Part shown: positions 26,849 to 29,074 of the stretch, piece by piece
Position numbering within the stretch: the first letter of the stretch is position 1
Layout: each line of letters opens with the position of its first letter
Assembly (NCBI RefSeq): GCF_012952295.1
Contig: NZ_JABBCH010000010.1
Span: 1-64,000 of the forward strand
Source: Crystallibacter degradans
GTDB lineage: Bacteria > Actinomycetota > Actinomycetes > Actinomycetales > Micrococcaceae
DNA length: 64,000 nucleotides
Direction: 5' to 3'
Translations under genes and position numbers: made by a program
Notes under the pieces: model-generated
The model's database searches: none
What the model was told of the DNA's origin: nothing
Seen by the model: the letters and a program-made list of their open reading frames with translations, nothing else

Positions 26849-27553
26849 TTACTCGGCGATCTTCTGGCGTGCCTCGCCACCTGCGGGCTCGAAGCCTGCA
26901 GCCTTGGCGGACGCGACGGAGTCAAACCAGTACTCGGCGGCAGTCTGCTCGTACCAGGTGGAGCCCGGAACGTGGTACTTGTTGGACTCAGCGTTCCCCT
27001 TGATGGTGAAACCCTCGGGGGCCGGCTGACCGTCAACAACACGGACCGCACCGGCAGGAGCTTCGCTCTTGTCAGCGGCAGCAGCGTCGCTCTTTTCGGC
27101 CTTTGCCGGGGCCGTCTGAGCCTTCTTTGCGGCCTTGGCTGCTTCGGCCTTCTTTACGGCCGGCTTTGCCTCAACAGCTGCGGGAGCGGAGGTGTCAGCG
27201 GGGAGGGAATCCTTGGCAATCTGAACCAGGGCAGCGAATGCATTGGCATCCGAAACAGCCAGCTCGGCAAGCATGCGCCGGTCAACCTGGACCTCGGCGG
27301 CCTTCAGGCCCTGGATAAGCCGGTTGTAGGTCAGGCCGTTGGCGCGGGATGCAGCGTTGATGCGCTGGATCCAGAGACGGCGGAAGTCACCCTTACGCTT
27401 GCGACGGTCGCCGTAGCTGTACACAAACGAGTGCAGCAGCTGTTCCTTGGCCTTGCGGTAGAGACGGGACCGCTGTCCGCGGTATCCCTTTGCGCGTTCC
27501 AGGATTACCCGGCGCTTCTTATGGGCATTAACCGCCCGCTTCACACGTGCCAC
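26849..27553 (-). CDS. rplT: 50S ribosomal protein L20 with a C-terminal extension
   Basis: Residues 1-118 are a normal L20 ([15 protein letters not shown]...), which binds 23S rRNA and is needed for 50S assembly. The protein then continues for about 116 residues, roughly doubling its length. An Ala/Lys linker (119-170) is followed by a compact module (171-226) with KGN..S.KYHVPGS..Y..TAAEYWF......AGFEPAGG. Similar short modules occur at the ends of other actinobacterial proteins. Start GTG 27553 has AAGGAG upstream. Last gene of infC-rpmI-rplT. Confidence 0.95.
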
Positions 27554-27669
27554 GTGCGTACTCCTTAAGTGTTGATACCCAGAAGCCTAAGTTGATGTTC
27601 CTCAGGCTGGGGAGCTAGTTGAAAAGATGTGGTGGACCGGATGACCGCACCAGAAATCAGAAATTTGAG

Positions 27670-28003: not shown

Positions 28004-29074
28004 TCAGCTCTTGGAGCTGCTCCGGCCGGAAGGCTTGGGTGCTGCCGGTTTGGCCGGCGCCTTGGCCGCGGCTGGTTTCGGCTTGGCCATAGGCTTCGGC
28101 ATCGGAGCCGGAGCCTTGGCTGCTGGCTTCGGTGCCGGAGCTTCCGCCTTGGCTGGAGCAGCCTTCGGTGCCGGAGCCTCCGCCTCAGCCGGAGCAACCT
28201 TCGGTGCCGGAGCCTCCGCCTCAGCCGGAGCAACCTTCGGTGCCGGAGCCTCCGCCTCAGCCGGAGCAACCTTCGGTGCCGGAGCCTCCGCCTCAGCCGG
28301 AGCAACCTTTGGTGCCGGAGCCTCCGCCTCGGGAGCCTGGGCCTCTTCCTTGGGCGCTTCCTGCACCGGTGCAGCTTCTGCCGGCGACTCCGAAGCAGCC
28401 GGCTCCGCGGCAACATTGGTCAGCTCTTCGGGCAATAGGTCGCCCAAGCTCTGGGTCATCGGAGCCTGGTCCGAAGAAACGTCTACGCGCTCCTTCTTGG
28501 CTTCGTTTGCTGCCTTCGCTTCGGCTTTCTGGGCCGCCCGACGCGCTTCTGCCTTGGCCTCTGCCTTGTTCTTAAGCGGGCCGATAACCATTACCATGTT
28601 GCGGCCGTCAATGCGTGGGCTGGATTCGACCACGCCGACTTCGGCAACATCATCAGCGAACTTCTGAAGCAGGCGAATGCCCATCTCCGGACGCTGCTGC
28701 TCACGGCCACGGAACTGGATCATGGCCTTGACCTTGTCCCCGGCTCCGAGGAAACGCAGAGCATGACCACACTTGGTCTCGTAGTCGTGCTTGTCAATCT
28801 TCAGCCGGAAACGGATCTCCTTGAGTACCGTATTCGTCTGGTTCTTGCGCGCTTCACGGGCCTTGACTGCAGCTTCATACTTATACTTGCCAAAATCCAT
28901 GAGCTTGCACACCGGAGGCTTGGCCTGCGGTGCGACCTCAACAAGATCCAGATCCGACTCGGAGGCCAGACGCAGGGCGTCCTCAATACGGACAATACCG
29001 ACTTGTTCACCAGCCGGTCCTACCAACCGCACCTCAGGGACGCGGATCCGATCATTGATTCGTGGCTCGCTAAT
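28004..29074 (-). CDS. infC: Translation initiation factor IF-3 with ATT start and long repeat-rich tail
   Basis: A 356-residue protein. Residues 1-170 are a full IF-3 ([19 protein letters not shown]... to [10 protein letters not shown]), which binds 30S and proofreads start codons. Residues 171-356 are a Lys/Ala/Glu then Pro/Ala-rich tail with four 12-residue repeats ([12 protein letters not shown]). The start is taken as ATT at 29074-29072: AGGAG lies 6 bases upstream, and no ATG, GTG or TTG fits the family N-terminus. IF-3 recognises and represses AUU starts in other bacteria. First gene of infC-rpmI-rplT. Confidence 0.93.
28128..28340 (-). repeat. 36-bp tandem repeat array inside infC
   Basis: Four consecutive near-identical 36-base units occupy 28164-28199, 28200-28235, 28236-28271 and 28272-28307. 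Degenerate copies flank them at 28128-28163 and from 28308. The unit is a multiple of three, so copy number can change without breaking the frame; it encodes a 12-residue Pro/Ala/Glu repeat. Confidence 0.92.

Follow-up and report, generated by a model that had tools for sequence, protein, structure and literature searches.

Ribosomal proteins that carry the small C-terminal domain called sunset have already been catalogued in curated protein families. NF051450, "50S ribosomal protein L20, sunset domain variant", describes an L20 extended in this way. NF051448, NF051449 and NF051451 (the L17, L4 and S2 sunset variants) and NF051433 (the ArfC sunset variant) hold the same C-terminal domain behind a similar linker, with a different host protein in each case. 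The same domain lies in the C-terminal extension of C. acnes uL4, again on a different host, and is not described as a domain in the available part of that report (PMC10085706). NF011109 (PRK14537), an L20/unknown domain fusion, is another L20 with an added part. A literature search, with most subscription journals and preprints lying outside its scope, found no study of sunset or of an L20-sunset fusion.

The window analyzed here, meaning the whole 64,000-nucleotide stretch from Crystallibacter degradans, contains an rplT gene whose product is an instance of NF051450. The whole protein passed this model with 418 bits against a cut-off of 375; its architecture was the same over residues 1–232, and nothing essential differed. 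NF011109 matched residues 1–148 with 125.7 bits, below the cut-off of 187, and the sunset domain lay outside that match. The gene and its parts are as follows.

26849 to 27553, minus strand: rplT, bL20 with a sunset tail, a single open frame of 234 amino acids with a GTG start
27561 to 27566, minus strand: Shine-Dalgarno-like AAGGAG, 7 bases before the GTG of rplT, read from the sequence
27203 to 27553, minus strand: bL20 core, residues 1–117 (PF00453, AlphaFold helices, dN/dS 0.13)
27020 to 27202, minus strand: Ala/Lys/Pro linker, residues 118–178 (low pLDDT, variable length, dN/dS 0.43)
26879 to 27004, minus strand: sunset domain, residues 184–225 (NF051437, AlphaFold, profile match to the Ada zinc domain)
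26852 to 26878, minus strand: the last nine residues, GEARQKIAE, after the sunset domain (L20 alignment)

The first-pass annotation had proposed that L20 here bears a separate C-terminal module, and this was confirmed: a normal bL20, a linker and a sunset domain follow one another in one frame. PF00453 (bL20) matched residues 3–109 with 137.8 bits, TIGR01032 (bL20) matched with 138.7 bits, and NF051437 (sunset) matched residues 184–225 of 234 with 65.4 bits against a cut-off of 27, so the name sunset was also correct. The limits given for the module, residues 171–226, held only in part; the profile covered the shorter 184–225, while conservation began at about residue 178 (APEGF). The span originally marked, 26849–27194, corresponds to residues 120–234, that is, linker plus domain. 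Past the domain, R229 and Q230 were invariant in the 28 rows of an alignment of L20 sequences. A search of genome G000 (4.96 Mb, 124 contigs) found exactly one sunset domain, on rplT. Upstream of rplT lie infC and rpmI, assigned by eye; about six 36-nucleotide tandem repeats encode the C-terminal tail of IF3 (28091–28330, minus strand).

A frameshift or read-through artefact was ruled out, with 38 of 39 family carriers encoding the domain in one open frame with L20. That the domain accompanies L20 in 39 of the 120 genomes of the family likewise argues that the fusion is not a chance event. At one locus of the same genus (L109, genome G105), the sunset domain follows closely after L20 on one contig of a 350-contig assembly but in a different frame, which may reflect an error or decay; this locus was counted among the L20 carriers by manual assignment and was not used in the trees.

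AlphaFold predicted the sunset module, from a 66-sequence alignment, as short strands and a helix, with block pLDDT of 83–91 over residues 21–70 of an 81-residue stretch. In a full-length model built with 28 L20 sequences, the bL20 core reached block pLDDT of 65–93, except for 43 at residues 41–50, and the sunset domain scored near 80. Linker blocks had pLDDT of 30–50, with residues 123–164 below 50. The pTM of this model was 0.34, so the relative placement of core and domain carries no meaning. These models predict a folded domain behind a disordered linker. Across 34 L20 sequences, one of them from the window, linker length ranged from 37 to 66 residues, and mean identity was 0.91 in the core, 0.81 in the domain and 0.51 in the linker. 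For L20 sequences with a sunset tail, dN/dS was 0.13 for the core, 0.19 for the domain and 0.43 for the linker, based on 269 of 561 pairs (pS 0.03–0.45) that are not independent of one another. The sunset domain of L20 is under purifying selection, stronger than that on the linker, and the L20 tail pairs a domain kept by selection with a loose tether of about 40–65 residues. Near-invariant Lys, His, Pro, Tyr and Thr residues were common to 66 chosen sunset domains of all kinds.

Within the family, 86 of 120 genomes carried at least one sunset domain, giving 122 domains at 121 loci, one of which holds two. The hosts at these loci were L20 (39), L17 (22), L4 (7), cysteine-pair proteins (46) and others (7). 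A few assignments were made by hand or by eye: L003, a contig-end stretch in G087, where L17 was not found, was labelled L17 from its likeness to L004; nine late loci were counted as cysteine forms by eye; and L111 was binned as cysteine-free in the host counts, the class carrier count and one tree though its pair is visible by eye. A ribosomal carrier was present in 66 of the 120 genomes, and 64 of these 66 had one ribosomal host (L20 alone in 39, L17 alone in 20, L4 alone in 5, both L17 and L4 in 2). The other 54 had no ribosomal sunset, which makes the module dispensable. The genes themselves were near-universal (all 120 genomes had L20, 119 had L17 and 119 had L4), so a missing tail is not a missing gene. 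In one family member (G104:C1:3123510-3124068), L4 is split into two matches, one with an inner TGA.

L20 carriers and L17 or L4 carriers did not overlap in the family, with 0 genomes observed to hold both against 8.8 expected under independence. At genus level, the domain was on L20 in 12 of 32 genera and on L17 or L4 in 7, no genus falling in both groups (P 0.023, genera being compared by their labels only). The L20 modules form one clade, so the 39 genomes are not 39 events and the exclusivity is confounded by phylogeny. A scan of named genomes returned 285 relatives, and homologues of the module therefore extend beyond the species. The 80 kept came from Micrococcaceae and Intrasporangiaceae, with L20 as host in 65 and L17 in 15; the nearest among these 80 was from Arthrobacter sp. 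VKM Ac-2550 (96% over 56 residues). Two names break the genus pattern, Kocuria and Pseudarthrobacter, each of which appeared once on the L20 side and once on the L17 side, although one Kocuria label may be mistaken. In two genomes named Pseudarthrobacter, the domain is on L17 in one (L318) and on L20 in the other (L247).

Sunset was found in 73 of 394 genomes of the class. The 69 further class loci had L4 (18), L17 (12), S2 (3), cysteine forms (13) and others (23) as hosts, which are no fair sample since most of the loci were picked from frames shorter than about 600 amino acids and did not include every match; for L17, L4 and S2, the assignment was checked with Pfam on a single member per host. 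Of 296 genomes in the phylum, 29 matched (25 above the cut-off), as did 47 of 198 in the class of G611 (42 above the cut-off) and 3 of 66 in the class of G596. Hosts outside the class included uL22 (identified by Pfam in L182, L183 and L320 and by BLAST in L319), NusA bearing sunset at its C-terminus (L351, in G611) and NuoC (identified by Pfam in L347 and by likeness in L346). For uL22 (L182, L183), NusA (L351) and NuoC (L347), no sunset-variant model scored above its cut-off, only NF051437. The two NuoC proteins (complex I subunit C; L346 and L347, genomes G984 and G596) have a long acidic tail, and sunset is not at their very end. One more L20 host beyond the class (L181, G596, family f56) failed NF051450 (203.7, cut-off 375) and passed the ArfC variant model (103.7, cut-off 100).

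A strict rule of one carrier per ribosome was rejected. Among the 30 carrier genomes of the class, 27 bore the domain on one ribosomal host and 3 on two, and outside the class two genomes had three hosts each: uL22, L4 and S2 in G905 (S2 and L4 being L348 and L349), and uL22, L4 (L208, by BLAST) and NusA in G611. Non-ribosomal hosts included SNase and GmrSD_C nucleases and one LGFP-repeat protein. This bears out the first-pass statements that relatives of the module stand at the ends of nucleases (SNase in L086 and L097, GmrSD_C/HNH in L140 and L170) and on other actinobacterial proteins, which were present among the loci of the surveyed genomes. Each of three short proteins (L117, L125, L121) combines a single hydrophobic, helix-like start with two consecutive sunset domains.

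The suggestion that the module serves a site specifically near L20 proved too narrow. Relatives bear it on L17, L4, uL22 or S2 instead, so the ribosomal site seems not to matter much. The broader suggestion that it recruits a factor or stabilises assembly is compatible with the observations. The same distribution bears on the idea that the tail tunes how L20 regulates its own infC-rpmI-rplT operon; in E. coli and B. subtilis, L20 acts as an autogenous repressor according to the available excerpt of PMC10931766. The presence of the module on L17, L4, uL22 and S2 speaks against such tuning and leaves it extremely improbable. These four proteins are not known to share autogenous control of the L20 type.

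The sunset module has moved between ribosomal protein genes, namely those of L17, L4, L20 and S2 and, outside the class, uL22. Among the 99 ribosomal modules of one tree, the 37 from L20 formed one clade (100/99), whereas those from L4 and those from L17 were each scattered, a single clade being rejected for both (AU p 3e-7 and 5e-6, respectively); with only 52 columns in this tree, many of its forks are open. In another tree, the L20, L17 and L4 modules of the family formed a group (99/97) that also took in two G421 modules and the misbinned L111, and L20 stood beside one L17 group (96/77) at a fork that is not firm. A free tree grouped the L20-borne module L181 with modules from membrane-type proteins and NuoC (96/90), but a tree constrained to a single L20 group that included L181 was not rejected (AU p 0.20, L111 dropped). 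In G421 (family f3), the rplQ and rplD tails share 270 nucleotides at 96% identity, a stretch that starts some 42 codons ahead of the domain and ends 2–6 codons short of the stop. Nine other carrier pairs within the same genome share 123–276 nucleotides at 70–87%; one block in G611 (the first 801 nucleotides) reflects loci that overlap on a single piece of DNA and was excluded from these pairs.

Such mobility would also suit a promiscuous hitchhiker, a C-terminal module spread by copying within genomes and tolerated on free C-termini, with selection only for remaining soluble and folded. The many unrelated hosts, down to NuoC and single-helix membrane-type proteins, the 54 of 120 relatives without sunset on ribosomal proteins and the copying seen within genomes all agree with this idea. 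However, the dN/dS of the domain (0.19) is near that of the ribosomal core, and the near-invariant residues of the 66 domains look like a binding site and not like a folding core alone. We consider hitchhiking unlikely while keeping it in view. Alternatively, the module may be a mobile adapter, an Ada-derived zinc-less domain copied among the L17, L4, L20, uL22 and S2 genes and on to NusA, through which the actinobacterial ribosome, whether assembling or working, would retain a handle for a common partner whatever its bearer. This reading we hold tentatively, at a low probability.

The origin of the domain was addressed by structure and profile comparison. The two best Foldseek matches among 350,542 PDB chains were structures of the N-terminal zinc domain of Ada (N-Ada), both weak (E 2.4 and 5.0). 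When 21 chains were re-aligned, three reached Z of at least 2, all of them N-Ada (3.9, 3.1 and 2.6), and no other family did so among these 21. In a Pfam scan of 66 chosen sunset stretches at E up to 10, PF02805 was the most frequent family (12 of 66, best E 0.0012), followed by one with 2 of 66 (best E 0.0015). The window's own sunset stretch had no Pfam match at E up to 10, and PF02805 was absent for the whole window protein at E up to 1. Ada was picked for profile comparison after the Foldseek result, with a profile of 29 actinobacterial Ada zinc domains (from 30 loci, one being without the motif). By hhalign the sunset and Ada profiles were collinear over 45 columns, with a probability of 77.5, an E of 1.9e-5 and a score of 28.9; 200 column shuffles scored at most 16.4, the reversed profile 8.7 and three decoys at most 14.1. 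The 54 rows without the cysteine pair, taken alone, matched Ada with an E of 1.2e-4 over 44 columns, and the 12 cysteine rows alone matched over just 18 columns at the helix end.

One bridging sequence, L202, passed both PF02805 (49.5, cut-off 23) and NF051437 (31, cut-off 27), and its domain (in G584) has a His and three Cys. L205 (in G563) passed PF02805 alone (25.5, cut-off 23) and scored 19.3 for sunset against a cut-off of 27. Both L202 and L205 hold His plus three-Cys domains between sunset and Ada zinc domains, and L205 ends a thermonuclease. Where Ada has Cys38, a His was present in 97 of 100 ribosomal sunset domains and in 67 of the 80 others; in the window this is His194. The commonest residues at the first three zinc-cysteine places in ribosomal forms were His, Ser and Ala. 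An Ada-type four-cysteine zinc site in the window's domain was ruled out, since it has no Cys. Foldseek, Pfam, the profile comparison and one bridging sequence thus agree on a relation to Ada, each being weak to moderate alone. The Ada N-terminal zinc domain (PF02805; PDB 1u8b, 1wpk, 1adn), which the accessible portion of PMC4999995 describes as a circularly permuted treble clef, gave a collinear profile and the best, if weak, structural match, whereas the sunset domain of the window lacks the zinc cysteines and any PF02805 match. From these sequence and model comparisons, sunset appears to be related to PF02805, without its zinc, but not to belong to that family. The L20 tail is predicted to be a small metal-free descendant of an Ada-type zinc-binding domain, as one part of our best explanation, whose chances as a whole we put at about even.

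A cysteine pair, scored by pattern, occurred in 51 of 80 non-ribosomal and 0 of 100 ribosomal sunset domains, with four more having the second Cys only. Mean net charge was +2.7 for the cysteine form and −3.1 for other cysteine-free forms; by ribosomal host, it was −1.3 on L20, −1.4 on L17, −3.1 on L4 and +1.7 on S2 (n = 3). Many relatives with signal-like starts, judged by eye as secreted, have the pair and are basic. The pair is also found on many short single-helix proteins in the class of G611, so it does not mark secretion alone and the split between outside and inside is not clean. Because the L20, L17 and L4 forms lack the pair and are acidic, a protein partner inside the cell seems likelier for the ribosomal forms than a nucleic acid.

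These charges weigh on a reading of the tail as a nucleic-acid binder, in which N-Ada-like contact with a phosphate backbone, in rRNA, mRNA or nucleoid DNA, would aid ribosome assembly or placement. The Ada relation itself points this way, as do the cysteine forms, which end nucleases and are basic, and the S2-borne domains with their mean of +1.7. So do the hosts, which include NusA and, going by the available excerpt of PMC10931766, three of six first-step 50S assembly proteins (uL4, bL20 and uL22). By that count, 3 of 4 50S hosts are among the six (P 0.014, noticed after the fact). The number of 50S proteins is taken as 33 in this P value. Nevertheless, the L20, L17 and L4 forms are acidic, the zinc cysteines are gone, and bL17, the second commonest host in the family, is outside the six assembly proteins in the same excerpt. 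We regard nucleic-acid binding as unlikely.

The explanation we favor is that the L20 tail is an Ada-descended domain on a disordered tether that gives the ribosome a position-tolerant docking handle for a putative partner, a proposal with about as much chance of being right as of being wrong. It builds on a domain that is conserved, a linker that is not and a host that changes, as expected if the ribosomal place mattered little. Sunset would be displayed on the solvent side of the 50S subunit, and on its tether it could bring a trans-acting partner to the ribosome or the assembling 50S; one handle per ribosome would usually be enough. C. acnes uL4 (PDB 8crx chain e), which carries sunset at residues 241–290, offers a structural view. 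In the available part of PMC10085706, this solvent-exposed extension is without density and, in the authors' opinion, likely disordered. Missing density is what a tether would give. It would also be compatible with cleavage of the tail after translation, leaving a mature ribosome with plain L20. A floppy tether accounts for the missing density equally well, however, and the sunset domain is conserved; cleavage is thus very improbable.

Ribosomal proteins are usually seen as fixed; here a domain predicted to fold has been passed between them while selection holds it, and one genome (G421) still shows the transfer as a DNA copy 96% identical. A solved ribosome, that of C. acnes, already carries sunset in its uL4 sequence without density for it, and the Ada relation supplies a testable fold and ancestry for the domain. 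If sunset has a partner, that partner would be a new accessory of the actinobacterial ribosome. If the domain is indeed a mobile adapter, the ribosome would have an accessory part that can be swapped between bearers, selected for what it does rather than for where it sits.
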